Positions 15,497-32,217 of a stretch of 32,657 nucleotides of DNA are shown here, one piece after another. Under the pieces are notes generated by a model. It was not told the origin of the DNA. It saw only the letters and a list, made by a program, of their open reading frames with translations, and did no database searches. The stretch's first letter is position 1. Each line of letters begins with the position of its first letter. The stretch is from NCBI GenBank assembly GCA_017432285.1, contig JAFRJM010000002.1:1-32657 (forward strand), given 5' to 3'. Made by a program: the position numbers and the translations under genes. This DNA comes from Oscillospiraceae bacterium (lineage in GTDB: Bacteria > Bacillota > Clostridia > Oscillospirales > Ruminococcaceae).

Positions 15497-15613
15497 ATGT
15501 GCCGAAATATAAATCTGCCAGTAAAAAAGACGAATGCTGTCTGCAAAGTCCGACAATTGGACCAACTTTTCAATCTGGGACAGAAAAACCTTTCAAAATG
15601 GTCTCTCTCATTT

Positions 15614-15909
15614 CATATATAGTAGAGGGACTTTTGCTCAGGGATCTGAATCTGCTAGGAATCGACGAAAAAGTCACATTCTGTCAGCATAACGCGACAG
15701 AAAGCAAATTTTCTTAAATTTTTGAAAAGAGGGGGGCATTTTTTGGCCTCTCCCATTGCATATATAGTAGAGGGATCTTTTTCCTATGATTGCCTATACC
15801 GCATGGAAAATGGCTTTGTTGTCACTGTTTGACGACAACTAAAAATTTTCTTTGAGAAGGGCACAACAGGCTTAATTTTTTGCCCTTCTCTGTTCATATA
15901 TAGTAGAGG
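15614..15909 (+). repeat. Three hairpin plus CATATATAGTAGAGG units at the element's left side
   Basis: The exact 15-mer CATATATAGTAGAGG occurs at 15614, 15759 and 15895, spaced 145 and 136 bp apart, and a fourth time at 31724. Each copy is preceded within a few bases by an inverted repeat of different sequence. The clearest is GAGAAGGGCA/TGCCCTTCTC (15854-15890); the one before the second copy is GC-rich with wobble pairs. Between copies lie further inverted repeats with TGTC/GACA cores. The spacing and variable stems suggest protein-binding or recombination sites, or RNA processing elements. I do not recognise the family. Confidence 0.75.
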
Positions 15910-16387
15910 AATCTTTTTTAAGTTTCCTCATGAACCTTGAAAACTGAATATGCAAGCACTGAGACATCAGTCCTGGTGATAGCCACTTGTGAGGTACGCG
16001 TTGACCCTTCTGAAATAGGGGAGGCTGAGCGAGAATCCCGTCACAGACCATGAGACAGCTTCTCATGTAGGCGAAGACAGCCAGGATGATAATGGTACTC
16101 CCGGAAACGGCTCGGAGAGATCCTCGGAGGGGTGAGATTCCCGTGATGCGGATACGCTGTCCGCTACTCAGTGACTTCCCGGTTGCAGGGGCGAGGAGGA
16201 TAAATACTGCATAACTGATCAGTTATACCAAACGAAAGAAACAAGGATCAGATGATGACACCACAGGATCGTAGAAAACGACGGAACCACACCAAGGGAG
16301 CAGAGTTTCTATCTGTAATGATCGCCCAAGTGTTTGTAGCTCCCGTTATTCATGTACTTAGGAGCACATCGCCAGATGTGTTTTTTT
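15910..16387 (+). ncRNA. Candidate large structured RNA of the mobile element, copy A
   Basis: About 480 nt without a gene lead to a terminator at 16365-16387, and the second copy at 31739-32217 has the same plan. Stems are conserved while loops vary: CATGAGA/TCTCATG, GCGGA/TCCGC and GGGAGC/GCTCCC. One stem shows a paired change: C16010-G16020 here is U31838-A31848 in copy B, and U16009-G16021 is C31837-G31849 there. That argues for a functional RNA rather than spacer DNA. It lies just upstream of the small Cys-rich protein and the ATPase, so roles in copy control, attenuation or transfer are possible. No known family was recognised. Confidence 0.55.
16365..16387 (+). terminator. Terminator at the end of structured RNA copy A
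   Basis: CACATC-GCCA-GATGTG followed by T7. In copy B the loop is GACA and the stem is identical. It separates the structured RNA from the genes at 16557 onward. Confidence 0.8.
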
Positions 16388-16556
16388 AGTGTTCAAAATC
16401 AGGTGTCATTTTTGAGGTTTTTATCTCATGTAAGACGATAAATGCTGAAAAGGTACAGACATATTACCCAGTTATAAAAAACAGTTTTCAGGGCAAATAA
16501 ATGCAGATTTTGCACCCGGAAAGCACACTTTTTAGGAGAGTCCAAATTTGTCGAGA

Positions 16557-16712
16557 ATGAGTAAGAAAAAGAAAGAGGAATATGCGCTCTTTCTTAATAA
16601 AAAAAGCCGAATAACATATAACCCTGTTTGCTTAAGATGTCAGAAAGATTGCAAACAGAGCTTCAGGGCGGTCTTGTTGGCTTGCAATAAATATCAGAAA
16701 AAGGAGAGATGA
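16557..16712 (+). CDS. 51-residue Cys-rich small protein, element copy A
   Basis: A short gene runs from ATG 16557 to TGA 16710-16712. It has a very basic start (MSKKKKEEYALFLNK) and a CLRCQKDC motif (CxxC-x3-C) with one more Cys near the end (LLACNKYQKK), which could bind zinc. The product is nearly identical to that of the gene at 32387-32542 although the flanking DNA differs more, which supports it as a real gene. Its last codons contain the AAGGAG site of the ATPase gene, whose TTG start follows the stop by one base, so translation is probably coupled. A DNA- or RNA-binding accessory of replication is plausible but not shown. Confidence 0.7.
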   Translation: MSKKKKEEYALFLNKKSRITYNPVCLRCQKDCKQSFRAVLLACNKYQKKER

Positions 16713-16713
16713 A

Positions 16714-17709
16714 TTGAACTATTTGGAAATGCAAGAAAAAACAGAATTGATTCTTCGGAACTACGACGATATTAAAGCAGAAGAGATTCAGTGGCTATGG
16801 TATCCCTATATACCGTTTGGTAAACTGACAATCCTTCAGGGTGATCCAGGCTGTGGCAAGACGATGGTTGCATTGGATCTTGCAGCGCGGTTATCTTCAG
16901 GAACTCCGCTGCCATTTACTGATAAGATCTGCAAACCAATCAATATCATCTATCAGACGGCAGAGGACGGTCCGGAAGATACTATCAAACCACGGCTTAT
17001 AGCAGCAGGTGCAGATTGTTCTAAGATCATGTTGATCGAAGAAAAAGAATCTCCAGTATCGTTTGGTGACACCAGGCTGGAAGAAGCTATAAAGGCTTCT
17101 GATGCTAAAATGCTGATTCTTGATCCGTTATCTGCTTTTATCGGCAACGATGTAAATCTGAATCATGCGATCGATGTCAGGAAAGCATTCCGACCGCTTT
17201 ATGAGATGGCAGATCGAACGAAATGTGCAGTACTGATTATTTCGCACACGAACAAAATGAAGGGAATTTCTTCCCTTCATAGGACAAATGGATCGATCGA
17301 TGTCGCCGGCGCTGTCAGGTCAATTCTTGCAGTCGGAAAGAGAAAAAATGAAAAGACGGAACGTATTCTGGTCCAGGTAAAGAACAATCTGGAACAGGTC
17401 GGTCCGTCTTTAGTTTATGAACTGACAGATCATATTGAGTGGAAAGAGCAGTCAGAGATTAGTGCAGATGATCTGTTCATGGAGTTTATCACACCTGCCG
17501 AAAAAGCAACTAAGAAAGAGAGAGCCAAGGAAGAACTGATTGAATTGTTGATGGAAAAGGATCAGCCTCAGACATATATCAAAGATTATTTTGAGAAGAT
17601 GAATATCAGTTTTCGAACAGTACAGGAGGCTCAGAAAGAGCTTGGTATCAAGCCGTACCGGCTTCACAACCAAAGCTATTGGCCGTATCCCGCAACAACG
17701 CAACAATGA
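16714..17709 (+). CDS. RepA-like AAA/RecA-fold ATPase of the mobilizable element
   Basis: This 331-residue protein begins at TTG 16714, 8 bp after AAGGAG. It has a Walker A loop GDPGCGKT (residues 43-50), a TAEDGPEDT segment, a Walker B strand MLILDPLSAFIG with D137, and a third motif LIISHTNK. This order is that of RSF1010 RepA-type hexameric helicases, common in integrative mobilizable elements (AAA_25). The last 70 residues form a helical region with a possible winged-helix for DNA binding. The likely role is to unwind the element's DNA during replication or transfer. It lies just upstream of the probable transfer origin and the relaxase. Confidence 0.88.
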   Translation: MNYLEMQEKTELILRNYDDIKAEEIQWLWYPYIPFGKLTILQGDPGCGKTMVALDLAARLSSGTPLPFTDKICKPINIIYQTAEDGPEDTIKPRLIAAGADCSKIMLIEEKESPVSFGDTRLEEAIKASDAKMLILDPLSAFIGNDVNLNHAIDVRKAFRPLYEMADRTKCAVLIISHTNKMKGISSLHRTNGSIDVAGAVRSILAVGKRKNEKTERILVQVKNNLEQVGPSLVYELTDHIEWKEQSEISADDLFMEFITPAEKATKKERAKEELIELLMEKDQPQTYIKDYFEKMNISFRTVQEAQKELGIKPYRLHNQSYWPYPATTQQ

Positions 17710-17771
17710 AATGTATATCAGAGGACTGCGCAGTGACATGGGATCTTCCCGATACAAACTGCGTTGTTGCG
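17691..17771 (+). repeat. Inverted repeat around the ATPase stop codon
   Basis: CGCAACAACGC (17691-17701) has its exact complement GCGTTGTTGCG at 17761-17771, with 59 bp between. The left arm lies in the last codons of the ATPase gene and the stop codon is in the loop. It could end transcription loosely (GTAGTTGTTTT follows), or act as a binding site next to the transfer origin. Confidence 0.6.
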
Positions 17772-17799
17772 TAGTTGTTTTCGGCAGGTAAAGGGAGTC

Positions 17800-18089
17800 C
17801 AGAGGGAACGGCTGGCCCACGACCTTGTGTGCAAGGTGTAGTGGGTTACACAACATATGCGCCGGAAGAAAAACCAAGGGGTTTTCTTCTTCACAGGCAG
17901 TTGTGATGCGAGCCATGGGATCGAGCGGAACAACTGTCTGGGAGAGGACGGCAATCATAAGAGCGGATGAAGCGATTATGACTGCCGGACTGACAAAAAG
18001 GCGCAATGTTGGGTTTGTAACAAGCAGGAAGATTGGATGAAGCTATGGGACACGTTGACTTCTTACATCCTTCCTTGAATATAAGTTGA
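17800..18089 (+). other. Probable origin of transfer (oriT) region upstream of the relaxase
   Basis: This gene-free stretch holds two adjacent inverted repeats: CCTTG-TGTG-CAAGG (17823-17836) and GTGTA-GTGGGT-TACAC (17836-17851). The MOBV relaxase gene starts at 18090. MOBV enzymes usually nick a short site in or beside an inverted repeat just upstream of their own gene, so position and structure fit. The exact nick cannot be read. The rest of the stretch shows nothing further that I can support. Confidence 0.5.
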
Positions 18090-19072
18090 ATGGAGGGAAT
18101 CATGGCAAACTACGCAATCATGAGAATAGAAAAAAGAAAGCTCGGCGCGGTCGGCAGGATCTGCCGTCACAACGAGCGTCTGAAAACAGAGTATAAGAGC
18201 AATCCGGACATTGATCTGGAACGGACAAAGGATAACTACCACATTATAGGACCGTGCCGCAATTACAGAAAAGCAGTACTTGATAAGATCGAGGCATCTG
18301 GGGCCAGGATGAGAAAAGACAGCGTTGTGCTGCAGGACTGTTTCATCGGAGCGACTCCGGAATGGATCCGAAGTAAACCATCCGAAGAACAAAGACAGTA
18401 CTTCGAGCATGCTGTCCGATTCTTCGAACAGAAATACGGAAAAGAGAATATCATCTCTGCAGTGGTGCATATGGATGAGGCGACTCCCCACATGCACCTT
18501 TGTTTTGTCCCTCTGACAAAAGATGGAAGGCTGTCATCCAAAGAACTGATAGGCGGACCAAAAGGCTTGAGCACATTGCAGGATCAGTTCTATGTCCATA
18601 TGCACAACAAGTATTTGGATCTGACCCGAGGCCTTCCTTCCAGAATATCAAAGAGAACACATATACCGGTCTACATGTTCAAGAATGCCGGCATGCTCTA
18701 TGACCACTATGAGGAGATCTTGAAGGCAATCAATGATATCGGTGTCTTCAACTCCGGGAAGAAAAAGGAGGAGGCAGTTGCTTTGTTGGGACGGTATGCG
18801 CCGGAGATGGCAAAGCTCAAGGACCAGCTGAAAACAACAGATGAACACATCAAATATCTGGAAACTACCCTCTCCGATGAGAGTGATCGTGTCCGTTATT
18901 ACAGAAGCGATAACTATGAAAAAGAGTTAACGATAAAGGAGCAAAACCAAAAGTTATATGAGCTGAATGAAAAACAGAAGCAATTGGAAAAGCTGGTATC
19001 AAAGATACCACCGGAGTTCTTGGAGCAGATCCGACAGCAGGAATTGAAGGATAGAAAGAAAAGGAGTAGAGG

Positions 19073-19085
<13 letters not shown>
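18090..19085 (+). CDS. MOBV-type relaxase (Pre/Mob; TnpZ-like)
   Basis: This 331-residue protein has an N-terminal relaxase domain with an RHNER segment (residues 22-26) and the histidine triad motif VVHMDEATPHMHL (H123, D125, E126, H130, H132) that holds the metal. A helical, charged C-terminal region from about 245 to 331 is probably coiled coil. MOBV enzymes nick the transfer origin and carry the strand during mobilization by a helper conjugative system. The start has GGAGGG 7 bp upstream. The length is somewhat short for the family (often over 400), mostly in the C-terminal part. The end overlaps the TnpW-like gene by 13 bp. Confidence 0.93.
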
Positions 19086-21036
<1,951 letters not shown>

Positions 21037-21049
21037 TCGTATCTTTTGA

Positions 21050-21090
21050 AATAAAAAAGGAAGAAGAGTACTAGCACTACTCTTCTTCCT
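21050..21090. terminator. Strong convergent terminator between the element and the second M56 gene
   Basis: AGGAAGAAGAGTA and TACTCTTCTTCCT form a perfect 13-bp stem with a 7-nt loop (21058-21090). On the minus strand T6 follows (complement of AAAAAA at 21053-21058), so it best fits the end of the minus-strand M56 operon. It may also stop plus-strand reading from the recombinase. Apart from this and the repeat at 21149-21206, the stretch 21037-21316 holds nothing else I can support. Confidence 0.8.
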
Positions 21091-21148
21091 ATCGAAAGAT
21101 TAATAACTATCCGTCTTTTCGAACTCTCAAGTACTTTATCTTTCTCAC

Positions 21149-21206
21149 TATGGTCCGAAGGAGAATAAAGGACATGAAGTCTTTGATGCAGACAATTGCT
21201 GTACAT
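21149..21206. repeat. 57-bp repeat, copy 2
   Basis: Starts TATGGTCCGAAGGAGAATAA and ends TTGCTGTACAT. It matches 499-555 with a few changes, and lies 111 bp past the stop of the 21317-24538 gene. Both copies follow genes for propeller-like surface proteins in the same orientation. Confidence 0.8.
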
Positions 21207-21316
21207 CATTAAAATGGACTATTTGGTAATATTCTAGGGTACTGTTAACCATTTGACCAAAAGCTTTCCAAGGAAGGAAGCAAGAAGCCAAAGTGTCTTA
21301 TCAATCCGGTATTCTC

Positions 21317-24300
21317 TTATGCGCTAAAGTGCTCCCAGGAAAACTCACCGCTCAGGAAATCATCCTTTTTGACCATAACAATGCCGTCTTCTTCAATGAC
21401 CAGACCGTGCGTGATAAGCGGCCGCGCGAAAATAAGATAGTCTCCATACTCACCGATCATTCGATTGTATCCTGATTTGTCGGAAACACTTCCGTATATC
21501 TTCTTGACCTCTCCGGTTTTCAAATTGGCGACATAATAACTGCTTCCCAAGAGGCGCCATTCATCGTCTTGATTGATGTCCGTGCTAGCATAATAGGCAT
21601 AATCATCCGAAATGTAGATATAGTTGATCTTTTCGAACACAGGCGGCCCGCTGTAAGGAGTCGGGTAAAGATCTTCTACAGCCAAAGTCTCATTCCCATC
21701 GCGGTCTCTGCGCCAGAGAGACCACACCCAATGAAGCCTTTCCGGCTTTTCTTCACCTCTGACCATATAGTAGTCTCCATACGAGTTGGTGCCTGCGTAT
21801 TCCGCAGTTTCAGATGCACTGAGATGAAATACAGGATCATTGTAACGAAGCTCATACTGTTTTTGAACCGATGTCAAGGAACTGATCTTTGCGGAAGTCA
21901 GATCCATAATCCAGTACTCAAAAGGACCGTACAATTCTTCCGAATCGCTTGGAACCCCTTTGACCATCAGTATTGTTCCGTCCTTTGAGACCATCATGTC
22001 CTTGGAAAAACATAAGTCAACATCAGAACTGTATTCTCGCTGTTCGATCCCTCCTGATAAGATATCGAGCGTATAGACCAGATGATCATAGTCGAACCGT
22101 TCGGCATAAAGCCCTTGTCCGGAAACACTTGTGGAAACCGCATAGATCTTCTCTCCTGTACAGATCAGGATCGGAAGTCCCGTGTATTCAAAGGGAACCA
22201 GTTCAAAGGAACGCTTTTTCTTGCTTTGGAAGTCAAAGTAGCGAACAACGATACCATTTTTACCGCTCCTTTCAACTTTAGAAAAGCCAACAACTGCGTC
22301 TTCATAGACATTCGTCCATGGGTATAGAACAGTTTGTGGTGACCTGCTGTCGATTCGGACAATATCAAATGATTCCTTCCAGTAATCGTCTTTTCTCACA
22401 AAGACGTATTCCCTGTCTCTTGGATCCGAGTTGCTTCCGGTTTCAGCCAGACAATACCAGTTTCCTTCAGTTCCGGAGAAACCTCTGTACAGCACATTCA
22501 GTTTATAACCTTCTCTCAGAGAAGAGCTTTCAGGAGAAGGGGTATCGATCCACTCTCCTGAGACCGTGTTATACCAGACGGTCTTGAACTCGCCATCAAC
22601 GGAAGTGTACCCCGGAACATAAAATATTCCGTCTTCGATAAACTGTGAACTCGTCTTCCGTCCATCCGGTATAGGACAGATCGCTCCGGTTTCTTTTGTT
22701 TTGTACTTATACGTCTTCAGATATCCGTCAGCCGCATAGTAGACTTCATTTTCGCTGAAAACATAACCGCTGTACGGGTCCCTGTCCTCAATCTTCAGTT
22801 CTTCGCCGACATAATCAGGCTCCGTTTCGTATCTGCTGAGATCAAACAGAAGCGTATACGCTTCGCCGTGTTGCTGTTCATTGCTGCTTCTTCCTCCCAT
22901 GAGTACGAGCATATCTGCAGAACAACTGCCGAACAACGATAGATGAGGATCTTTTTCTGCTCTCAGGATCAGTTCTGCTGATCCGGTTTTCAGATTGACG
23001 CAGGCAAGCCAGGCCGGTTTTTTCAGCACGCCGTCTTTTTCGCTCAGCGAACAATATATGGTGTCATTCGGCCGGTCATAAACGATAGCGCTCCGGTAAT
23101 AGATGTGCCATACCTTTCCGCTCCGGTCTTTGATCTGATAGGATTCAGTGACCTCATCATATGGCGGGGCAAGGATATTGATCCGGCTGTATTCTTCCGT
23201 GCATGCGACCAACCGGTCTCCAGCTGTGAACAAAGCATACTGCTCCATGTACGGCAGGAGCTGTTCTGTTCCCAGATCCTTTCTTGTCATGCTTTCCGGA
23301 TCATACCAGGTCGGGAAGATCCCTCTGTCATCTGTTGTCAGGCAAAAAAAACCTGTATCTGCCGACAAGACCCAGTTATTGGCTGTTGCGAACCCCCATT
23401 GTGACGAAACCATCTCCAACTCATGTCGGGGAGCGACGGTTGGATCTTCCTGAACAGGATCCCCATTTTCATTTGTAGCAGGAGAAGGTTCGGAAGGCTG
23501 TGTTCCGTTTGTACCGCATGCCGCCAACGCAACGATACACACGGCAGCAGCAAGTACGGTAACGATCCTTGAGGCTTTCCTGTACCGCATCACGTTTAGA
23601 ATCCGCTCTTTGATGCTGCTCTCTCCGAAAGCGAGCGGGCTGGCCAGGGAGAACCGGTGACCGGTGGAAAAGGAAAGCAGCGCTGTTCCGTAATCCTTTG
23701 CGATCTCCCGGTAATGGGACAGCACATACTCGTCGCAGCTCATCTCCATGTCTTTTCCCATTTCAAAGTAGGCGATCCAGCACAGCGGATTGAACCAGTG
23801 CAGGCAGAGGAGCAGATACGAGAACAGTTTGACGAGGTGATCCTTTCTGTGCAGGTGATGTCTCTCGTGGGAAACGGCAATGTTCTCCGTCATGGGATCC
23901 AAGCCGAACGGCAAATAGATCGTCGGGTGTACGAGTCCGAGGATGAACGGCGTCCTCGTTTCCATTCTGCGGATGTTATCCCGCAGTGGAAGTGAATAGT
24001 TGGCCTGTTTTTTCACGCGCAGATAGGAAACGATACTGTAGATCAGCATAGCCGCGATCCCGGCGATCCACAGAATGCACAGGATCTTTTCCAGATCTAC
24101 GGAGGAAACAGCAGACTGAACCTCCGCAACAGACGGAACAGAAGGCTGAATCTCCGTGATCTCCGGCGTCAGCGCAGGACCGGTTGGACCGGAAGGCAAA
24201 ACTTCCGGCACTGGCGCGGGACGCATCGTCTCCTGAAAGACCTCCGTTGCTGCCGGGACACCCAGTTCCAGGATCTCCCGCTCAGCAGTCTCATAGGTCA

Positions 24301-24538: not shown

Positions 24539-24542
24539 TGTC

Positions 24543-24902
24543 TTAACCTCTGTATGAGTCGATCAGTTTTTTCAGTTCTTCTGCTTCCTCATCGGAAATC
24601 GTCTTTCCGTTGAAAAATGCCGTCAGAAATCCAGGAAGCGATCCGGAAAAGGTGTTCGCAACGAAGGTCTCGCTTTCAGATGACTGTACGGAATCCCTGT
24701 CGATCAGGGAAGTAACGACCGTCCGTTCGCTATGCACGAATCCCTTTTGCTGAAGACGTTTCAGCATGGTATACGTCGTGGATTTCTTCCAGTCGAACGC
24801 TTCGCCGCACAGCTGTACCAGCTGCATCGACGTCAGCGGTTCGTTTTCCCAGATCAGCGAAAGAAGGTGATATTCCATGATGCCGAGACTGCTTTTTTCC
24901 AT
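24543..24902 (-). CDS. BlaI/MecI-family transcriptional repressor (second pair)
   Basis: This 119-residue winged-helix repressor has the recognition helix KKSTTYTMLKRLQQKG and the C-terminal segment NTFSGSLPGFLTAFFNG, almost the same as in the protein at 5701-6060. The two differ mainly in the first ten residues and around residues 55-75. The gene precedes the 1073-residue M56 gene by 4 bp, and its promoter carries TAGACTA-type inverted repeats. The near-identical recognition helices mean that the two repressors may bind each other's operators, which would link the circuits. That cross-talk is inference. Confidence 0.93.
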   Translation of the reverse strand: MEKSSLGIMEYHLLSLIWENEPLTSMQLVQLCGEAFDWKKSTTYTMLKRLQQKGFVHSERTVVTSLIDRDSVQSSESETFVANTFSGSLPGFLTAFFNGKTISDEEAEELKKLIDSYRG

Positions 24903-24912
24903 GTTTTTCCCC

Positions 24913-24965
24913 AGTCTAATTTTGTAGTCTATAAGTAGACTAATACCTTAGACTGCACTTGTCAA
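24913..24965 (-). promoter_or_regulatory. Promoter and operator of the second BlaI-M56 operon
   Basis: On the minus strand there is a TTGACA -35 box (24960-24965), a 17-bp spacer, and a TAGTCT -10 box (24937-24942). TAGTCTATAAGTAGACTA (24925-24942) is a palindrome with 7-bp arms over the -10. An outer pair, AGTCTAA (24914-24920) and TTAGACT (24949-24955), brackets it. The layout matches the other two BlaI-type promoters in the window. Confidence 0.8.
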
Positions 24966-25039
24966 GAACAAAACTTTTTTTGCCGAACATCCCTTGTCTC
25001 CGTACAATAACATCATAATGAAAAAAGTCTGATACTTTA

Positions 25040-25083
25040 AACATGTACCGAGAATCCTGGACAAAGGATTCTGGGTACATGTT
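25040..25083. repeat. Long near-perfect hairpin
   Basis: AACATGTACC-G-AGAATCCT pairs with AGGATTCT-G-GGTACATGTT around a 6-nt loop, giving 18 pairs with one internal G-G mismatch. No T run follows on either strand, so it is not a standard terminator. It lies upstream of the BlaI promoter in the gene-free stretch 24966-25456. Confidence 0.65.
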
Positions 25084-25124
25084 ACTATCATACAGGTGGG
25101 TAACATGGAAAAATCAGCCGCAGA

Positions 25125-25173
25125 AAAACCCTTTATCTCCGTAAAGATCGGGCAATAAAGGGCTTTTGATTTT
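25125..25173 (+). terminator. Terminator-like hairpin
   Basis: AAAACCCTTTAT pairs with ATAAAGGG-C-TTTT around an 18-nt loop, followed by GATTTTT. It probably ends a plus-strand transcript of a lost gene. A 17-codon frame from ATG 25105 runs into the hairpin and its sequence (AEKPFISVKIGQ) vaguely resembles the start of TnpW proteins; it is too short to call. Confidence 0.45.
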
Positions 25174-25456
25174 TGCAAGTCAGAATAATGGACAAAAAAG
25201 AAGAATATCGCAGGACTAAGTCCTTTTGCGATACTCACAGTGTACACTAGGGCGATGCTTTTTTATCTAAAATATAGAGTATTTTTGCAGTAAAAACTTA
25301 ATGAAATAATTCGCTTATACATTATTGAAACGGAATTTTTACTACAAAAAAAGCGGTGTATACTACATTATTATGTGTTCAAACTTATATTGATATTACA
25401 ATATAAAATGGAATAATTGTAGAAAGAGGTAAAGCATACTGCTAGAGTGTGCCACA

Positions 25457-25501
25457 AACACTAATAGCCTATAAAAGTTAACACAATCAACACTAATAGC
25501 C
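25457..25501 (+). promoter_or_regulatory. Direct repeat AACACTAATAGCC, period 32 bp
   Basis: The 13-mer occurs exactly at 25457-25469 and 25489-25501. The 32-bp period is close to three helical turns, so two proteins would bind on the same face. A possible promoter follows at 25512-25541 and the small peptide gene at 25565. This arrangement is usual for activator sites, including those of LytTR regulators, though the repeat is not a known consensus. Confidence 0.6.
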
Positions 25502-25511
25502 AACAATGTGG

Positions 25512-25541
25512 TTGCCTGCTAGATGGTAGGATTTATATAGA
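25512..25541 (+). promoter_or_regulatory. Possible promoter of the peptide and four-helix protein genes
   Basis: TTGCCT (25512-25517) is followed after 16 to 18 bp by TATATA or TATAGA (25534-25541). The -35 is weak, which fits a promoter needing an activator bound at the direct repeats just upstream. It is a visual match only. Confidence 0.4.
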
Positions 25542-25564
25542 ATATAAAAGCAGGAGTCATTATA

Positions 25565-25675
25565 ATGAGAACTGAAACTGATTACTCATTAGGTTATTAT
25601 CTTACCACTAAAGTTGATACTCTTGGATTAAAAACATATAACATTACTTCAAGCGGATCAGCGACTCCGTTTTAA
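25565..25675 (+). CDS. 36-residue peptide, unknown; possible secreted or modified peptide
   Basis: A short frame runs from ATG 25565 to TAA 25673-25675, preceded by GCAGGAG at 8 bp. The N-terminal half is mixed and charged (MRTETDYSLGYYL). The C-terminal part is polar and small-residue rich, ending SSGSATPF, with no Cys. It has no membrane helix or standard signal. A leader-plus-core layout as in ribosomally made modified peptides is possible, but no modifying enzyme gene was seen nearby. The gene for a four-helix membrane protein starts 19 bp downstream with its own AGGAGG site, so the pair is probably one transcript, with export or immunity as possible roles. Confidence 0.5.
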   Translation: MRTETDYSLGYYLTTKVDTLGLKTYNITSSGSATPF

Positions 25676-25694
25676 TCAATTAGGAGGCTATATC

Positions 25695-26099
25695 ATGGAG
25701 AAGGTTGTTCTACAATACATCATCACTTGGTTGGGCGATTTTTCTTATCTTATTGGGGTGACGCTTTATACCTTAGCACTTACAATAATAGTGCAGGATA
25801 TTGATTCTAAAAAGCTGCTGGAACAACATACATGTTGGCATTATGTCTTCTTTTGTATCACTGTGGAACTTATGATTTTGCTCTCCATATGGGCTACCCC
25901 GGCAGAAAACTCAATTATTCCACATAATACAAAAATAATGATTCTCATCGTTTTATATGGTTCTCTTCTTTGGTTGCTTGGAGTAGTATATACGTTTTTT
26001 TTAGCTATAAAGTATGCGAAAAATGATGATATCCGTATATTGATGTGTGCAGCAAATGCTATTTTTCTATTTTTGTTATTCTTGAGTCTGCATATATAG
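25695..26099 (+). CDS. Four-helix membrane protein, unknown function
   Basis: This 134-residue protein has an ideal ribosome site (TTAGGAGGC). Four hydrophobic helices can be seen at about 9-32, 47-67, 79-103 and 113-134, joined by short polar loops (one with NDDIR). There is no enzymatic motif. Size and topology are like immunity or sensor proteins encoded next to small peptides, but also like many orphan membrane proteins. It follows the 36-residue peptide gene and is more AT-rich than the M56 genes, which suggests separate origin. Confidence 0.7.
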   Translation: MEKVVLQYIITWLGDFSYLIGVTLYTLALTIIVQDIDSKKLLEQHTCWHYVFFCITVELMILLSIWATPAENSIIPHNTKIMILIVLYGSLLWLLGVVYTFFLAIKYAKNDDIRILMCAANAIFLFLLFLSLHI

Positions 26100-26115
26100 G
26101 CCGATAGTATAAATA

Positions 26116-26490
26116 ATGTTTTTGAGTAAAACTATCGAGCAGTTCGGAAGCGGTTTTAAGCGGATCGACAGCCTGTGTAAGGATGCCGGAATCAAATATA
26201 CGTATGAAAGAAGTGACAACGGCTTCAAATTCATCATTTACAGACCAAAACTCATAAGTGACACTCCCGATGTCACTTATGATGTCACTTATGAAAAAGC
26301 ACTGAATATCACTGAACAGACGGTGCTGATGGTTTTGAAGCAGAATCCCGAGATTTCCCGTGAAGAAATAGCGGAAAGGGTTTCTAAAACAGTGAGAACG
26401 GTGCAGAGAGCTTTGGTTTCATTAACAGAGAAGGGCTATATCAGACGTGTCGGCGCGAAGAAAAACTCCACATGGGAAGTGCTTCGGTGA
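26116..26490 (+). pseudogene. C-terminal fragment of an AlbA/RecG-like transcriptional regulator
   Basis: 124 residues match only the end of ATP-binding AlbA_2 (Schlafen-like) or RecG-related regulators: EQFGSGFKRIDSLCKDAG is the conserved start of the last HATPase_c_4-type segment, and a winged-helix follows (PEISREEIAERVSKTVRTVQ). The N-terminal 300 or so residues usual for the family are missing, and no ribosome site precedes the ATG at 26116. A short tandem DVTYDVTYE lies in the linker. It is probably a remnant left by deletion or insertion near 26100. A free winged-helix regulator is the alternative. Confidence 0.75.
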
Positions 26491-26527
26491 AAAAAATGGC
26501 GTGGGTTTTGGGGGACACGATAAAAAC

Positions 26528-27037
26528 ATGATTAACATTGTACGGCCACATACAAAGAAAGAACTTGAGGGCGTAGCAAAGCTCAATTATCTTGTGGATA
26601 TTGATACCATGTCGCATTTTTGGACTGAAAGTTATACAAGGTATTATATAGAGCACGGCCTGCAGGATGCTGAGAAAGCGGCATTCTCTTTTTCGGATCA
26701 TATTTTAGCTGCCGAAGATGACGAAACGGTTGTAGGAATGGTTGTCTTTTGCGAAGCTTATGCCAATTTCGACGGGGAACGCTTAGTTCCAAACAGCGGT
26801 ATGATCAATAACGTTTACGTGTTGCCAGAGTATCGTAGCAAAGGAATTGGCAGTAAACTTTTGGATAGAGCTCTGAATTGCCTAAAGCAATATGAAGCAA
26901 TAACTCTTTATGTGTATGAAGAAAATATGGCGGCGATTGAGTTTTATCTGCATTATGGATTCCGATTTGACGGTGTTTCATATATTGATGGAGCAGCCTA
27001 TAAGGGACAGTTCCTACGAATGGTGATATATCCCTGA
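26528..27037 (+). CDS. GNAT-family N-acetyltransferase
   Basis: This 169-residue protein starts at MINIVRPHTKKE, the usual start position for the fold. The frame is open further upstream but overlaps the preceding fragment. The acetyl-CoA binding motif A is clear: NNVYVLPEYRSKGIGSKLLD, with RSKGIG as the pyrophosphate loop. Motif B follows as YVYEENMAAIEFYLHYGF. The fold is certain; the substrate is not. The ribosome site is weak (GGGGGA). It has no obvious functional link to the neighbours. Confidence 0.9.
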   Translation: MINIVRPHTKKELEGVAKLNYLVDIDTMSHFWTESYTRYYIEHGLQDAEKAAFSFSDHILAAEDDETVVGMVVFCEAYANFDGERLVPNSGMINNVYVLPEYRSKGIGSKLLDRALNCLKQYEAITLYVYEENMAAIEFYLHYGFRFDGVSYIDGAAYKGQFLRMVIYP

Positions 27038-27144
27038 TGTTATACTAAATCATAGGTATGGGAATCAGGACTAGGTTAACAATATAATGCAATAGGTGTA
27101 TTTTGGGTTCTCAGGAAGAGAAAGAGGCTCTGAACATGTCTCAC

Positions 27145-27172
27145 GGGAGGGAGAAAACAGAATCTCCCTCCC
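27145..27172 (+). repeat. Perfect 10-bp inverted repeat upstream of the nucleosidase gene
   Basis: GGGAGGGAGA pairs with TCTCCCTCCC around an 8-nt loop. No T run follows. It lies 55 bp before the ATG at 27227 and could be an attenuator or a transcript-stabilising hairpin. Confidence 0.6.
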
Positions 27173-27226
27173 ACCGCTTGTGGTAGTATGGTCTCAATTA
27201 CAAATCGGAGCTTAGCGAGGTAAAAA

Positions 27227-27961
27227 ATGACTGCAGACAGACCCATTGCGGTAATGGGAGCGATGGATAGCGAAATCGGTCTCATCATCGGCAGAATTGA
27301 TAATAAGAGCACACGGCGCATCGGCGGCTGGGATTTTATCAGTGGCACAATCGAAGAGAAACCAGTCACAGCCGTGCGCTGCTTTATCGGTATGGCAAAT
27401 TCCGCCGCTGCAACAGCTCTTCTTATTGAGAATTACAATCCTCAATGCGTAATAATACAGGGCACCTGTGGTGGTCACAATCCGCTTCTTCACAGAGGCG
27501 ATATCATTATAGGCGAAAGAGTGATTGAAAACTGCCGGCGAGAGACCTCACCTCTTGGCGAAGGCGAAGGCAGTCGGTTCGAAAGTAGCAGACCAATCAA
27601 AGCCCAGATTCCATGCGGGAACACATGCGAAAGAGCAAGTGAGATTTTCTGTGACAGTGCACTTATGGAAAAGGCAAAGACTGTCCCATATTCAAAGGGC
27701 AGATTAATCACCGGTTGCATAAGCTGCGGAGATGTATTTAACCGTGAGCGTGATGTTCTGAAATATTTGCACTCTGTGCGCGGATCGGACTGCGAGGAGA
27801 TGGAAGGCTTTGCCGTAGGCCAGGTCTGTAAGGCATTCGGCGTGCCGTTTATCGATATAAGAGTTTTGAGCAACAGCGAGCTTTATCCTGAGGAGGAATT
27901 TGACGAAAGCTATGCCTCGCAGTGCCAGGAATTCTGCCTCGATTTTATTGAAAAGTTGTAA
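27227..27961 (+). CDS. MTA/SAH nucleosidase-family protein
   Basis: This 244-residue protein of the phosphorylase superfamily has IAVMGAMDSEI at the N-terminus, the GTCGG loop in IIQGTCGGHNP, and CEEMEGFAVGQVCK, which holds the ribose-binding Met-Glu pair. Characterised MTA/SAH nucleosidases cut methylthioadenosine and S-adenosylhomocysteine to adenine plus a thio-ribose. The catalytic Asp expected after the VRAIS-type strand is Asn here (DIRVLSNSE), as in related phosphorylases, so the substrate may differ or the reaction may be phosphorolysis. The ribosome site is GAGG. The gene stands alone and ends before a strong terminator. Confidence 0.85.
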   Translation: MTADRPIAVMGAMDSEIGLIIGRIDNKSTRRIGGWDFISGTIEEKPVTAVRCFIGMANSAAATALLIENYNPQCVIIQGTCGGHNPLLHRGDIIIGERVIENCRRETSPLGEGEGSRFESSRPIKAQIPCGNTCERASEIFCDSALMEKAKTVPYSKGRLITGCISCGDVFNRERDVLKYLHSVRGSDCEEMEGFAVGQVCKAFGVPFIDIRVLSNSELYPEEEFDESYASQCQEFCLDFIEKL

Positions 27962-28050
27962 TAAGACAAATTCCAGTTTGTCTATCCGAATCTCTGAAAC
28001 CCATTGATTTTCCTGCATTTCCCTCAGCCTGCTACCATAAAAAGCTCCGT

Positions 28051-28095
28051 TTTCCCTTGTTTTTGCCCTTGTGGGGCAAAACAAGGGAAACTTTT
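28051..28095 (+). terminator. Very strong terminator after the nucleosidase gene
   Basis: TTTCCCTTGTTTT plus GCCC pairs with GGGC plus AAAACAAGGGAAA (17 pairs and one bulged T), followed by CTTTTT. It lies 90 bp after the stop. The A and T flanks would also allow minus-strand use. Confidence 0.85.
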
Positions 28096-28106
28096 TATCA
28101 GTTGCC

Positions 28107-28253
28107 GCCTACTTCCTTATCCAGCAGGCACCGCCTGAAAAAGAGAGCATCCGAAAGAAACTCCGGGATATGGAGACGGAGGCCAAGCGCCGGGACGACG
28201 CAAGGCGGCAGCAGCCCCGCCCTCGCAGCCACGATTATGACAGAGGACGCTAA
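28107..28253 (+). pseudogene. C-terminal remnant of a mobile-element protein
   Basis: The frame to TAA at 28251-28253 reads QQAPPEKESIRKKLRDMETE and then an Arg-rich tail ending SHDYDRGR. It resembles the C-terminal tails of relaxase-type proteins from clostridial elements, from memory. Upstream it joins directly to the terminator hairpin, so only the end of the gene remains. With the TnpV pseudogene at 30260 it brackets the sigma-factor operon. Confidence 0.4.
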
Positions 28254-28302
28254 GATAGAAAAATACACCGCAGGAGCCCCTGAGGTGCATACAGAGAAAC
28301 GC

Positions 28303-28325
28303 CCTGCAAGTTTGCGGCTTGCAGG
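28303..28325. terminator. Hairpin between convergent genes
   Basis: CCTGCAAG pairs with CTTGCAGG around a 7-nt loop, 12 bp from the stop of the minus-strand gene at 28338. The T tract is poor on both sides, so it is a weak terminator at best. Confidence 0.4.
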
Positions 28326-28337
28326 ACAAATCTTTGT

Positions 28338-29540
28338 TTAGTTAAAATATCCGTTATAGGTTGATAGGTTAGAGATATAATCGTCTTGGATTGCTGGAAC
28401 ATAATAGGCGCCATAAGTTTTTAGACCATTGCTTTGCGTCATCTGCCATCCGTCTGCATCCTGCAACTCAACATAGAACCGATAGTACGGGAGTAATGTT
28501 TCTTCTCTCGGCCCGGAACGATATACCAGTTCCACCTTTGCAATATACTTTTCTCCGGGCATGGCAACAGGAACACTCGTCTGATATTGACCATCCAGCA
28601 GCTTTTCTTTCGCTTCTGCAGCGGAAATCAATGGATAATCCCCGATCTTTTCCGCCATGCGAAGGCCGTCGCTCATCCGGATCAGCATCAAACAGCCATC
28701 ATCATCCGGCGCAAATTGTGCAGCACGGAAGTGATAATTCAGAATTCTTTCTGTTATATCCGTTCCGGCATCATAGACCAAGTAACGGCGTATATAGTCC
28801 CCACTGAACGTATAATCACCCTGCAGCACGATCTCAGGATGGTCATAATTCAAAAAAGAGGCGTACGCTTCCGTCAAATAGGCCATGACTTCTTTCGCTT
28901 CCGAATCTGAAGTGTCATCATAGGTGAAATGATACTCTTCAGGAAGTTCATAGCCGCTGGGTAGATTATATACCAGTGAGCCATTGGCATAAACTATTAA
29001 GTTCCCACTTCCCGTAATCGCACGAATACTGTAAATAGCATCACCGGGAATAATTGTGCCATCCTCGCTCTTCGTATCATTTGCTTCAGTTTTAGTTTCC
29101 TGAATCTCCAGGCCCAACACTTTTGCAGCGTTTTCCAGTTCTGCAATCATCTCTGCTTCGCTTAAGCCGATCGGCACGCCAGCGCCGGATGGATCATAGC
29201 TGCCGTTCCTGAAAACAGGTAGTGTGTCCAACGCCATGTCCTCGCGCCAAGGATTCCCGTTTTCCAATTCCTCAGCGCTGTAGTACATCAACCCCTCGAA
29301 TCCCATACCGTTGCTTTCATATTTTGGAATCGCAATTTGAGGTAGTCCTCCAGAAATGTCTGGGGTCGTTCCACTGGGGCGGGTTATCGCAAAAAGTCCT
29401 CCCGTGACTAGACAAAGGCATGCGGCAACCGCTGCCCACTTTGTCCATCTCGATATCACAGGCTTTTTTCTTTTCTTAGCTTCTTCAATTATACTATCAT
29501 CGGTGTTCCCAATCATATCGAGCAGATCATTTGCTTTCAT
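28338..29540 (-). CDS. Membrane-anchored anti-sigma-like protein of the ECF operon
   Basis: This 400-residue protein starts at ATG 29540 with AAAGGAGGGG upstream; the longer frame lies inside the sigma gene. Residues 1-30 are cytoplasmic (MKANDLLDMIGNTDDSIIEE, then a KKRKK patch), residues 34-52 are one membrane helix, and the remaining 340 form an outer domain with no recognised motif, including DYTFSGDYIRRYLVYDAG and LPYYRFYVELQDADGW stretches. The start follows the sigma stop by one base, so translation is coupled. The layout is that of a sigma partner which holds the factor at the membrane until the outer domain senses stress; the usual zinc anti-sigma motif is not present, so the call is by context. 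Confidence 0.72.
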   Translation of the reverse strand: MKANDLLDMIGNTDDSIIEEAKKRKKPVISRWTKWAAVAACLCLVTGGLFAITRPSGTTPDISGGLPQIAIPKYESNGMGFEGLMYYSAEELENGNPWREDMALDTLPVFRNGSYDPSGAGVPIGLSEAEMIAELENAAKVLGLEIQETKTEANDTKSEDGTIIPGDAIYSIRAITGSGNLIVYANGSLVYNLPSGYELPEEYHFTYDDTSDSEAKEVMAYLTEAYASFLNYDHPEIVLQGDYTFSGDYIRRYLVYDAGTDITERILNYHFRAAQFAPDDDGCLMLIRMSDGLRMAEKIGDYPLISAAEAKEKLLDGQYQTSVPVAMPGEKYIAKVELVYRSGPREETLLPYYRFYVELQDADGWQMTQSNGLKTYGAYYVPAIQDDYISNLSTYNGYFN

Positions 29541-29541
29541 T

Positions 29542-30096
29542 TTAATACCCCTCCTTTTCGAGCATCGCCCGGAGCTTATTTCTCGTCCGGTACAACATAG
29601 ATTTGACCTTGCTCTCAGAACAGGTAAACTGTTTCGCAATATCAGAAATAGAATCCATATACCAGTACCTGCACATGAATACCTGACGATCAACCTGAGG
29701 AAGCGCCAGCAGAAAATCATTCAGCTTTTTCTGTAATTCTTGCCCCTCAATCTCAGTTTCAACATCTTCTGTCCCTGACACACATTCTTCCAGTTCATCA
29801 AGAGCAAGGGCCATTACACCGCAGCCACGCTTTTCTGCGCTGTATTTTCTCCATAGATCAATGGATATCCGGCGCGTGATCTTCCCTAAAAAGGTTGAAA
29901 GAATGGAAGGGCGGTGAGGTGGCATAGACTGCCAAGCATCATTGTATGTATCGTTTACGCATTCTTCTGCGTCCTCGGCATTCAAGAGAATCTGATATGA
30001 GATACTGTTTAGATACTTTCCGTACTTTACAGCCGTTTCAGAGATCGCGCTCTCATCGCGCTGCCAATACAAATCAACAATACGATTATCCTCCAT
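29542..30096 (-). CDS. ECF-type RNA polymerase sigma factor
   Basis: This 184-residue sigma-70 family member has region 2 at about residues 20-85 (DAEECVNDTYNDAW and RRISIDLWRKY) and region 4 at about 130-178 (LPQVDRQVFMCRYW, then a helix-turn-helix SISDIAKQFTCSESKVKSML). There are no regions 1 or 3, as in ECF factors. The ribosome site is ideal (AGAGGAGGTGA). Its last codons hold the ribosome site of the downstream membrane protein gene. ECF factors usually switch on their own operon, so a matching promoter should lie just upstream, in the area of the palindrome at 30121-30145. Confidence 0.93.
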   Translation of the reverse strand: MEDNRIVDLYWQRDESAISETAVKYGKYLNSISYQILLNAEDAEECVNDTYNDAWQSMPPHRPSILSTFLGKITRRISIDLWRKYSAEKRGCGVMALALDELEECVSGTEDVETEIEGQELQKKLNDFLLALPQVDRQVFMCRYWYMDSISDIAKQFTCSESKVKSMLYRTRNKLRAMLEKEGY

Positions 30097-30120
30097 TCGA
30101 TCACCTCCTCTCAGAAAGAT

Positions 30121-30145
30121 ATAGTATGAAGGGCCCTTCGACTAT
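30121..30145. promoter_or_regulatory. Palindrome upstream of the sigma operon
   Basis: The perfect 12-bp palindrome GAAGGGCCCTTC (30128-30139) is flanked by ATAGT and ACTAT arms, offset by one base. It lies 25 bp before the sigma start codon. It may be an operator or an mRNA hairpin in the leader. No T run. Confidence 0.5.
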
Positions 30146-30228
30146 CTACTCGTAGAAAATCTGATTTGGTTGCATTGAAATATGAGAATATTATAGGACA
30201 TGATGCAATAGTCCCCTTTAGACAACAG

Positions 30229-30250
30229 CGGCGAGGATCGATCCCCGCCG
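30229..30250. terminator. GC-rich hairpin after the TnpV pseudogene
   Basis: CGGCG-A-GGATCGATCC-C-CGCCG is a compact hairpin 10 bp past the TnpV stop (minus strand). No clear T run follows, so termination is uncertain. Confidence 0.4.
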
Positions 30251-30259
30251 CCCGATACC

Positions 30260-30637
30260 TTATGCGTATATCAGATTATGATTCACGATCTCTGTTGCCC
30301 TGTCCCGGATGTTGTTCATTTGCTGCACCCACAGCATTTGATCCTGCGCCTTGAGCTGTTCAGTGACACCCTCACGCTCGGCCATTTGCGTTATCAGCAG
30401 GCGCATTTGCGCCGTTGCCTATTCGTTGATGTCGGCAAGGTATGTATTCAGCCTGCCGCTGGTCAGCAGTTCCGTGTACAGAGTTTTGCGCTCCGTCTTG
30501 ATGTACCGTAGGTGCCGCTGCCCCCAAATGCCGATAGGCCTTTCTTCCTGAGCCGGTACTGTCAGGCAGGGGATGTAATAGTCGCCCCGCAGTTCATGCC
30601 ACAAACCGTTGCTTTCGTCATAAATGGTCTTTTCCAT
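30260..30637 (-). pseudogene. TnpV-family gene with an in-frame amber codon
   Basis: The ATG at 30637 (MEKTIYDESNGLWHELRGDY) has AGGAGG upstream. The first 72 codons match TnpV proteins of Tn4451-type elements (IGIWGQRHLRYIK, LLTSGRLNTYLADINE). A TAG at 30419-30421 follows, where relatives commonly have Gln. The same frame then continues without break for 52 codons with the rest of the family sequence (MAEREGVTEQLKAQ, MNNIRDRATEIVNH) to TAA at 30260. One base change (CAG to TAG) explains it. TnpV may act as an excision-type accessory. It is a mobile-element relic unless the amber is read through. Confidence 0.85.
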
Positions 30638-30726
30638 TGTAAAATCCTCCTGTATAATAGCTCCGTTGATGTATTCGCACATATGTCACAGGCTCCCGAT
30701 TACCACACCTTGTTATATCCTGTTAT

Positions 30727-30855
30727 GACAATAATTTGATATGGAGCATAACAACGGAGCTAAAGAATTTGGACTATGCGAATTCAGCCTATGATCCTTA
30801 TAAAGATGAAGCTGTCTCAATGAAGCTTGACGAATATGGGATTCATTTGATCTGA
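30727..30855 (+). pseudogene. Possible 3' remnant of an unknown gene
   Basis: A frame ending in TGA at 30853-30855 reads TELKNLDYANSAYDPYKDEA and ends LDEYGIHLI, with protein-like composition, but no start codon or ribosome site. It could be the tail of a lost gene. The stretch 30638-30930 shows nothing else. Confidence 0.25.
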
Positions 30856-30930
30856 CTGGATAATTCTTCTTTGATATTATCAATAAGGCTAGGGCTCGTA
30901 ATGATTAGTGTAAATGGGGCAACTTGCTAA

Positions 30931-31647
30931 ATGGAGTCAAACGACAAACGAGTTTATGCAGGATATTACAAACGATATGACGGTCAACTGATCTACGTCA
31001 TATCGACTGCAAAAGACGCTGATACAGGTGAAGACACTGTTATCTATATGCCGTACAGCTTAACAAAAAAGTACGGTTACTTTACTATGTCAAAGAGGTC
31101 CTTTTGCGAACCCGTTATCATAGACGGAAAAGAGGTCCCCAAGTACCGAAGACAGACACAGAAGACACCTTCAGCTGATGTTCTCAATACTGTAAAAGCT
31201 ACTGGATTCCGTGGGCCGATTCGAAGGCCATCTGATGATGACGATTATGATCTATATGTTAGGAGATACCAGAGTTCACCAACGTATTACGAGTACGCTA
31301 GAGATATCTGTAAAAACTACAAAAAAGATATTGAGGCAATCAACGAATGCATAAAGTTGAAACGGTATCTTAGTATCTCAAAAGAGGACTTCTACAAGGC
31401 ACATGAAGATGTCAAACTTTTAAAATCCTCTATAGCGACCCGACTCAAAGAATACAAGGAATTCTTCCATGAACACTTCGTCCAGGGAATATCTATCAGG
31501 AAATATGCGGAACGACATGGTATTAATCGCGGGAGCGTCGAACTGATTCAAAAAAAGCTGTTTAAGGAATTCGCTGCGATACTATATGAGCGAGATGTGT
31601 CAGAGGGAAAAACCCGCATAAAACCGAAGAAAAATAAGAACACATGA
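30931..31647 (+). CDS. Two-domain protein: DUF1653-like N-terminus and helix-turn-helix-like C-terminus
   Basis: This 238-residue protein is not recognised as a whole. The first 70 residues (VYAGYYKRYDGQLIYVISTA, then DTGEDTVIYMPY and FCEPV) follow the pattern of DUF1653 domains, which are small SH3-like folds. A middle helical region (110-185) precedes a likely helix-turn-helix, GISIRKYAERHGINRGSVELI, near residues 188-208, similar to sigma region 4. The tail is very basic (RIKPKKNKN). DNA binding is plausible. The ribosome site is poor (GGGGCAA). The gene lies between the TnpV relic and the second mobile element and has a strong terminator of its own. Confidence 0.6.
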   Translation: MESNDKRVYAGYYKRYDGQLIYVISTAKDADTGEDTVIYMPYSLTKKYGYFTMSKRSFCEPVIIDGKEVPKYRRQTQKTPSADVLNTVKATGFRGPIRRPSDDDDYDLYVRRYQSSPTYYEYARDICKNYKKDIEAINECIKLKRYLSISKEDFYKAHEDVKLLKSSIATRLKEYKEFFHEHFVQGISIRKYAERHGINRGSVELIQKKLFKEFAAILYERDVSEGKTRIKPKKNKNT

Positions 31648-31656
31648 AGAAAAGAG

Positions 31657-31691
31657 CCATCTGCTTTATTTGAGCAGATGGTTTCTGTTTT
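31657..31691 (+). terminator. Terminator of the 30931-31647 gene
   Basis: CCATCTGCT pairs with AGCAGATGG (9 bp) around a 7-nt loop, followed by TTTCTGTTTT. It starts 9 bp past the stop. Confidence 0.85.
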
Positions 31692-31693
31692 AT

Positions 31694-31738
31694 GACACTT
31701 TATGACAGCAGCGAGTGTCCGTTCATATATAGTAGAGG
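31694..31738 (+). repeat. Hairpin plus CATATATAGTAGAGG unit, fourth copy
   Basis: GACACT (31694-31699) pairs with AGTGTC (31714-31719), then CATATATAGTAGAGG follows at 31724-31738. The plan is that of the three units at 15614-15909, and again it directly precedes the structured RNA. Here there is only one unit. Confidence 0.75.
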
Positions 31739-32217
31739 CCTAAATTAGAGATCTCTGCTGAACCTTGAAAATTGAATATGCAAGCACTGAGACATCAGTC
31801 CTGGTGATAGCCACCTGTGAGGTACGCGGTGACCCTCTTGAAATAGGAGAGGCTGAGCGAGAATCCCGTCACTGACCATGAGATAGCTTCTCATGGTGGC
31901 CATGACAGCCAGGATGATAATGGTACTCCCGGAAACGGCTCGGAGAGATCCTCGGAGGGGTGAGATTCCCGTGATGCGGATAAGCTGTCCGCAACTCAGT
32001 GACTTCCCGGTTGCAGGGGCGAGGAGGAACAAACTGCAAAACTGATCATTTAAACCAAGCGAAGAAACAGAAACGTGGAACGAGTATTTTCCACAGAATT
32101 ATCAGAACGAGAAAACCACGCCAAGGGAGCAGTGTTTCTATCTGTAAATGATCAGCCAATTGTTTGTTGCTCCCGTTATTTCTGTACTTATCAGCACATC
32201 GACAGATGTGTTTTTTT
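31739..32217 (+). ncRNA. Candidate large structured RNA of the mobile element, copy B
   Basis: The start of a second related element. Long blocks match 15910-16387, broken by a divergent middle (about 32030-32110 here). Stems seen in copy A are kept, with a paired change at U31838-A31848, and a hairpin found only here, GTGGAA/TTCCAC, lies in the divergent middle. The GGGAGCA/TGCTCCC pair is one base pair longer than in copy A. The RNA ends at the terminator 32195-32217. About 170 bp of conserved leader follows before the small protein gene. Confidence 0.55.
32195..32217 (+). terminator. Terminator at the end of structured RNA copy B
   Basis: CACATC-GACA-GATGTG and T7. Same stem as at 16365-16387 with a one-base loop change. 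Confidence 0.8.

Follow-up and report, generated by a model that had tools for sequence, protein, structure and literature searches.

Two pemK-family RNAs in an Oscillospiraceae genome resemble the canT antiterminator of Tn916

The window analysed in this study is a 32,657-nucleotide (nt) stretch, positions 1 to 32,657 of contig JAFRJM010000002.1 in assembly GCA_017432285.1 of an Oscillospiraceae bacterium, and it carries two copies of a structured RNA, here called copy 1 and copy 2 (Table 1). From the comparisons described below we infer that the two copies are very probably processive antiterminator RNAs of a mobile element, of the same type as canT of Tn916. The computed basis is the conserved fold, the identity of the pemK core (Rfam RF02913) with the core of canT, the coincidence of this core with the S3 mutation site of canT, and a neighbourhood of mobile-element genes. 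With somewhat less confidence, the whole pemK family is probably a Bacillota-wide group of RNA-only processive antiterminators, in which a boxA site and a conserved fold of ~250 nt modify RNA polymerase and thereby switch on the genes of integrative and mobilisable elements that use different recombinases.

The pemK core coincides with the S3 site of canT

Both copies match the full RF02913 model (positions 1–61, over 58 nt) far above its gathering threshold of 34.8. RF02913 is a 61-position model of the core only and is typed Cis-reg; the boxA-like sequence, helices P1–P5, P9 and P10 described below lie outside it. At the Rfam thresholds no family besides pemK was detected in the whole window, and a permissive search of 15300–16720 gave, apart from pemK, sub-threshold matches only. 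Since only pemK passes its threshold, and over 58 nt, ~220 conserved nt lie outside any Rfam model. An initial annotation of the window had described an RNA family that was not recognised, and had named an Rfam search in advance as a possible refutation. Because the core of both copies gave the pemK match, the proposal of an unknown RNA family was rejected, and the description as unrecognised is only half correct.

Relatives were collected as numbered loci (prefix L). The pattern used to find loci L055–L212 includes the core motif, so that their core identity is forced, as are the two invariant pairs of helix 9; conservation of the core was therefore taken from 33 other loci, of which three came via proteins and 30 via the pemK model, whose score in turn favours the motif. 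Among these, core positions 3–11 are identical in all 33, position 1 is A in 32, and position 2 is T (27 loci) or C (five loci). Where the pemK model identified loci in other genomes, the sequence on either side of the core is conserved too.

For comparison with canT we used a Tn916-type element on pCF10 (L217), located via the FtsK gene of L213, which we take to be Tn925, a near twin of Tn916. The element has a Tn916-like gene order and an antisense open reading frame (ORF) of 83 codons, the length given for orf5 of Tn916 in the main text of PMC11658703. According to the same text, the canT RNA lies between orf8 and xis of Tn916 and is needed for terminator read-through; it is cis-acting, orientation-specific and processive, and in a reporter it reads through foreign terminators, even three in a row. 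Its activity is abolished by canT(S3), in which ATA at nt 283 after the orf8 stop is changed to TGC, and by canT(delta162), a 162-bp deletion of nt 229–390 (PMC11658703).

The pemK model matched the pCF10 element at L217 2923–2823 (55.0 bits, threshold 34.8; E 5.3e-9). Base 2923 is nt 283 after the orf8 stop (orf8 ends at 3206) and the letters there read ATA, so that the pemK core and S3 begin at the same base. Of the 33 loci not selected with the pattern, 32 carry A at the first S3-equivalent position, 32 carry T or C at the second, and all 33 carry A at the third. The canT(delta162) deletion takes out the core and P5. Counterparts of the window's helices were identified in canT by eye, namely CGATAAGAA/TTCTTATCG (P2), CTATCTT/AAGATAG (P4), GCAATC/GATTGC (P5) and AGCTTT/AAAGCT (P9), and that of P1 is covered by the permutation test below. 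Overall, canT resembles the window RNA in its pemK core at the S3 site, its boxA-like sequence, and its P1, P2, P4, P5 and P9 counterparts, which are built from different letters. In contrast to canT, the window RNA has a close terminator and a P10 subdomain, the latter not seen by eye in Tn916.

Homology and covariation outside the core

Homology outside the core was assessed with R1, a model of the 5′ domain built from 40 loci with the core excluded, and without canT, the window copies or the near relatives of the window copies. R1 is a sequence-only model, because RNAalifold on the 5′ domain alone (alignment A1) gave no base pair. It finds canT of pCF10 (37.8 bits, E 1.3e-10) and both window copies (45.5 and 48.9 bits), and it also recovers L216 and, partially, L215. 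Identity to the closest training sequence is 71% for canT, 69–71% for the window copies and 94% for L216 (with L149). Six of eight control loci gave no match. Within the genome of the window, R1 has four matches at the same four places as pemK, one of which (L037, on contig C9) is a training sequence. A search of 147 genomes of the window's order returned 69 matches, 46 of them with a pemK core directly behind (among the matches listed). These matches are not all independent, because the training set holds the diverged C9 copy L037, L149 and loci from at least six of the genomes that were searched again among the 147.

Two alignments, A1 and A2, were made from 40 and 43 of 185 unique loci, respectively, all non-redundant and with the boxA pattern at a suitable distance. 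Comparison of the 43 copies gave a fold of ~240–290 nt, preceded by the boxA-like sequence, enclosed by helix P1 and containing helices P2–P5 and P9. Double changes occur in 43 of 47 pairs, with 80.2% of cells paired and 482 double-change cells. The covariation score was 0.516, compared with 0.197 for shuffled sequences (standard deviation 0.009; none of 500 as high) and 0.104–0.149 for slid partners; as the structure string was taken from one relative, L035, some excess over the slid versions is expected. With the window copies and canT left out, the RNAalifold consensus of 30 sequences contained P2, P3, P4 with its CGC/GCG base, P5, P9 and two helices of the core; 22 of its 30 pairs showed double changes. 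Pairing of P1, P2, P3, P5, P9 and the core also exceeded all 200 permutations in a plain MAFFT alignment of 62 sequences.

The weakest main helix in the 43-sequence count is P1 (62.6% of cells), whose 3′ strand is placed loosely by the alignment. A permutation test on 67 non-redundant loci gave a mean best helix of 10.35 for P1, against 7.04 for 300 permutations (standard deviation 0.17, maximum 7.62), showing that P1 joins the stretch after boxA to the stretch after the core. For the P4 hairpin, the register of the window was not supported in the 62-sequence alignment (144 of 257 cells were paired, and shuffling gave 139 on average and 153 at most), where the family's hairpin is aligned one column off and is paired to 0.88 when slid by +1. 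In the register of the relative (helix 5 of the 43-sequence count), 81.7% of its cells are paired, with double changes in 6 of 6 pairs. P10 has a conserved loop that ends in AAATA; it could be matched in 36 loci (14 non-redundant) and scored 7.81 against 4.37 in permutations (standard deviation 0.40).

The 3′ subdomain combines TTCCC with a covarying stem and a conserved GGGGTGTCGAGGACAAATA-type loop. It was also seen in L033, L035, L084, L107 and others, and was not seen by eye in the Tn916 member.

The two copies in the window

Direct repeats at 15931–16200 and 31759–32028 are 95% identical, and more repeated stretches follow. Together with the covariation in relatives, this bears out the earlier description of a large structured RNA in two element copies, and a terminator-like hairpin with a T run closes both copies as had been described. 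Copy 1 and copy 2 differ at 17 positions within 15931–16211 and at 45 in the remainder aligned to 16390, so that the constrained part is ~280 nt long and the tail towards the terminator is more variable. The initial annotation had inferred covariation from one stem of the two copies, the P4 hairpin. The stem is present, and the differences in copy 2 (16009 T to C, 16010 C to T, 16020 G to A) produce exactly the pair-keeping changes that had been claimed, U-G to C-G and C-G to U-A. Two copies by themselves prove little; the claim of covariation holds because of the alignments of relatives.

An RNA of ~480 nt, as had been proposed, would fit a putative start near the repeated element that ends at 15918 and an end at the terminator. 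Single-sequence folding indicated no unusual stability of the conserved part (z-scores −0.75 and −1.41; −0.47 and −3.72 for the 481-nt stretches), and folding energy was dropped as evidence since the z-scores of the conserved part were weak. Similarity searches at the DNA level returned only short pieces, in two phage records and one plasmid. The 2.1-Mb genome of the window (54.57% complete) contains four such RNAs: two in the window, one on contig C33 and one on contig C9.

Table 1. Coordinates of RNA features and genes in the window
Feature	Position	Strand	Remarks
Conserved RNA domain, copy 1	15931–16211	+	Alignments, folding, pair counts
Conserved RNA domain, copy 2	31759–32038	+	Repeat and R1 match; 94–95% alike to copy 1
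pemK core, copy 1	16089–16146	+	Rfam RF02913, 68.4 bits; begins with AUAAUGGUACU
pemK core, copy 2	31917–31974	+	Rfam RF02913, 68.4 bits
boxA-like TTGAAAACTGAATA, copy 1	15937–15950	+	Pattern in relatives
boxA-like TTGAAAATTGAATA, copy 2	31765–31778	+	
P1, copy 1	15957–15963/16167–16173	+	
P2, copy 1	15971–15976/16081–16086	+	
P3, copy 1	15982–15984/16070–16072	+	
P4, copy 1	Base CGC 15997–15999/GCG 16029–16031; hairpin 16006–16010/16020–16024	+	
P5, copy 1	16049–16055/16061–16067	+	
P9, copy 1	16148–16153/16159–16164	+	
3′ subdomain with P10, copy 1	16174–16211; TGCAG 16184–16188/CTGCA 16207–16211	+	Part of family only
Terminator-like hairpin and T run after copy 1	16360–16387	+	Precedes mobilisation genes
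Terminator-like hairpin and T run after copy 2	32193–32217	+	
Three copies of a 43-nt element	15595–15637, 15740–15782, 15876–15918	+	Shared block CATATATAGTAGAGG; candidate promoter region, copy 1
CATATATAGTAGAGG element before copy 2	31724–31738	+	
51-amino acid (aa) ORF	16557–16712	+	No Pfam or NCBIfam match
AAA_25 ATPase gene	16714–17709	+	
Mob_Pre relaxase gene	18090–19085	+	
Serine recombinase, two overlapping frames	19258–20768	+	Resolvase N-terminal 19258–19686; Recombinase and zinc ribbon 19647–20768
ORF upstream of copy 2, DUF1653	30931–31647	+	

Upstream sequences

In 112 of 182 unique loci, the core is preceded at 129–260 nt by a boxA-like sequence, TTGAMAAYNGAATA. It resembles the 16S leader of one relative and the 16S–23S spacer of another (CCTTGAAAATTAAACA and ACATTGAAAATTGAACA). 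The boxA of rRNA operons is the NusB-S10 site (accessible text of PMC10931766); given the likeness in sequence, binding of NusB-S10 to the RNAs described here is a possibility.

Further upstream, the CATATATAGTAGAGG block was found 188–190 nt before the core in the near relatives L006, L008, L020, L023, L065 and L096, and is also present in L003 and L024 (distance not computed); it was not found in L005 or L007. A scan for the sigma-70 consensus gave no match at the block of either window copy. The block may be a candidate promoter, perhaps of a special sigma factor, or an operator.

Neighbouring genes

Copy 1 is carried by a mobile element, with the Mob_Pre relaxase and the serine recombinase nearby. 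The two parts of the split recombinase were searched separately; because the gene is split over two frames, the element beside copy 1 may not move by itself. The context of copy 2 ends at the contig end after the 51-aa ORF. This cysteine-containing ORF follows both RNAs (16557–16712 and 32387–32542), within a stretch of 97% identity.

Neighbouring ORFs were clustered for the 182 loci. The commonest cluster, 67 ORFs in 66 loci, encodes a small sigma-70-like protein, a label that rests on two scanned members with matches below the NCBIfam cut-off; all 67 lie upstream on the same strand. The second cluster, 104 ORFs in 62 loci, encodes a serine recombinase (one member scanned), and all 104 lie downstream on the same strand. 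ParA-like ATPases occur in 30 loci and tyrosine integrases in 28, downstream on the same strand in 28 and 25, respectively. At least one of these clusters, or of three further upstream sigma- or orf8-like clusters, occupies the expected position in 139 of 185 loci, where three late-added loci without gene calls were scored as misses, and in 39 of the 44 loci with at least 2 kb before and at least 3 kb behind. Judged by these genes, the flanks are those of integrative elements.

The order of a sigma-like gene upstream and a recombinase downstream resembles orf7-orf8-canT-xis-int of the Tn916-type element. canT shares this context and the reading direction, with a sigma-like gene before it and recombination genes behind it. 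Unlike canT, which stands ahead of xis-int in a conjugative element, copy 1 belongs to a small mobilisable element and is followed by mobilisation genes (AAA ATPase, Mob_Pre relaxase). The first downstream gene in the 182 loci is a serine recombinase in 35, ParA in 27 and PemK in 7, with none in 34 and the rest mixed. Control of a PemK toxin was rejected as the role of the family in general, because only those seven loci have a PemK gene in first place; the family was reportedly named after PemK genes in the paper that defined it.

Proposed mechanism and alternatives

For the window RNAs, antitermination, the promoter, the role of boxA and contact with RNA polymerase are what we infer. Transcription would start inside the element, upstream of 15937, and the nascent RNA would display the boxA-like sequence, perhaps recruiting NusB-S10 as in rRNA. 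The RNA would then adopt a multi-branched fold, which P1 closes and which contains the pemK core, and the folded RNA would stay with its own RNA polymerase and make it terminator-resistant; contact with the polymerase is a suggestion made by the canT authors in the main text of PMC11658703. At copy 1, the polymerase would pass the hairpin at 16360–16387 into the 51-aa ORF and the AAA ATPase, Mob_Pre relaxase and serine recombinase genes, and at copy 2 it would pass 32193–32217 into the genes behind. Other systems named in that paper, put of phage HK022, EAR of the B. subtilis eps operon and conAn2 of pLS20, are likened to these RNAs by analogy only, as nascent structured RNAs that bring about terminator read-through (PMC11658703, main text).

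The terminator-like hairpin at the end of both copies would also suit a stand-alone regulatory RNA of ~480 nt that works in trans, with plasmids or phages among the conceivable targets, and upstream terminator-like hairpins, found on the same strand in 38% of 130 loci (other strand, 6%), may mean that the RNA is its own transcription unit. We consider a trans-acting RNA unlikely, because canT acts in cis and a copy placed elsewhere does not complement it (PMC11658703, main text), because all 104 serine recombinase ORFs are downstream of the RNA and share its strand, and because 82% of 145 loci have no terminator-like hairpin 40–340 nt behind the core. Little credence is given to a cis-regulator or riboswitch of the next gene only. 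The Rfam type Cis-reg, the name pemK and the ParA-like genes, whose median distance from the core is ~205 nt (start to start), would agree with it; however, the next gene varies among the 182 loci, where a one-ligand switch would be expected beside one pathway, and the Tn916 member acts on the foreign terminators of the reporter, including three in a row (PMC11658703, main text). The position of the copies in mobile elements near recombinase and relaxase genes could finally suggest a DNA-level element, such as an origin or a recombination or transfer site, with inverted repeats that mimic RNA helices. Such an element is hardly credible in view of the nested multi-branched helices, the 482 double-change cells, the G-U pairs on one strand, and the finding that canT is orientation-specific and also active in a reporter that lacks the element (PMC11658703, main text).

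Several observations weigh against the reading of the copies as canT-type antiterminators. To our knowledge, antitermination is known for no pemK RNA except canT. The boxA pattern is missing in 70 of the 182 loci, 64 of which have more than 300 nt of upstream sequence, and of four loci fetched for the sigma-like gene, two (L213 and L214) have no pemK match. The unconstrained minimum-energy fold of canT alone is another structure. A downstream terminator-like hairpin (40–340 nt) is present in only 18% of the 145 loci (10% on the other strand, 0–2% in shuffled sequences, and 2% of 134 loci further off), so that a close terminator, as in the window, is not a rule of the family. A 400-bp canT fragment is active and S3 is of little effect there, with mixed results for shorter pieces (PMC11658703, main text); because of this small effect, the core may not matter in every context. 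R1 also matched, weakly, two rRNA loci of one genome (16.2 bits, E 7e-4, model positions 3–54); these matches sit downstream of the 16S gene, as boxA would. Finally, 23 of the 69 R1 matches have no pemK core behind them (among the matches listed). Twenty of the 23 were examined (L230–L249): the pemK threshold was reached in two and just missed in two. Matches without a good core may stem from decayed elements or form a sister subfamily; the family probably extends beyond the reach of the Rfam model, or some R1 matches are false. As for the hairpins, their being commoner upstream and rarer downstream fits an RNA with its own start that is read through into what follows.

The rest of the 20 have diverged cores, are truncated or have no visible core. 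Among the matches without a good core, L232, L233, L236, L239, L243 and L248 have diverged cores, and L230 and L237 look cut short.

In the literature searched, no paper was found that links pemK with canT or with antitermination, which is weak evidence because most subscription papers and the pemK-defining paper lay outside it; the larger fold was likewise not found there. The word pemK is absent from the main text of PMC11658703. In the accessible text of other papers, pemK was used as a test set (PMC11507696), is among families with improved structures (PMC11701678), and differs between its Rfam and ZWD versions (PMC7657543). The comparison points to a likely function for an Rfam family for which the searched literature states none: because it appears to be the same as canT, the pemK family probably helps many bacterial mobile elements to switch on their genes. 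The authors of the canT study described structure predictions as complicated to interpret, with no clear structural rule (PMC11658703, main text), and canT now gains a structure supported by covariation. If the proposal is true, horizontal gene transfer in Bacillota would commonly be controlled by RNA antitermination, and the smallest fold with activity could be tested directly.

Occurrence of the family

Matches to the pemK model occur in 94 of 295 sampled genomes of the window's order (among the matches listed). The motif pattern finds at least 119 stretches, and the taxa named among the matches listed include Streptococcus, Enterococcus, Listeria, Peptoniphilus and Lachnospiraceae. All 20 scanned loci, 13 of them from the pattern scan, were above the pemK threshold. 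A subfamily with the P1 strand AGTGCTGCGGA is found on the IMG/VR contigs L184, L185, L194 and L198, which are classed as viral, and at the genome locus L040; the contigs may be integrative elements misclassified as phage. In Streptococcus oralis (L063, 6181–6291), the Rfam family Srn266 (Streptococcus RNA 266) lies ~0.9 kb upstream of the pemK RNA on the same strand.

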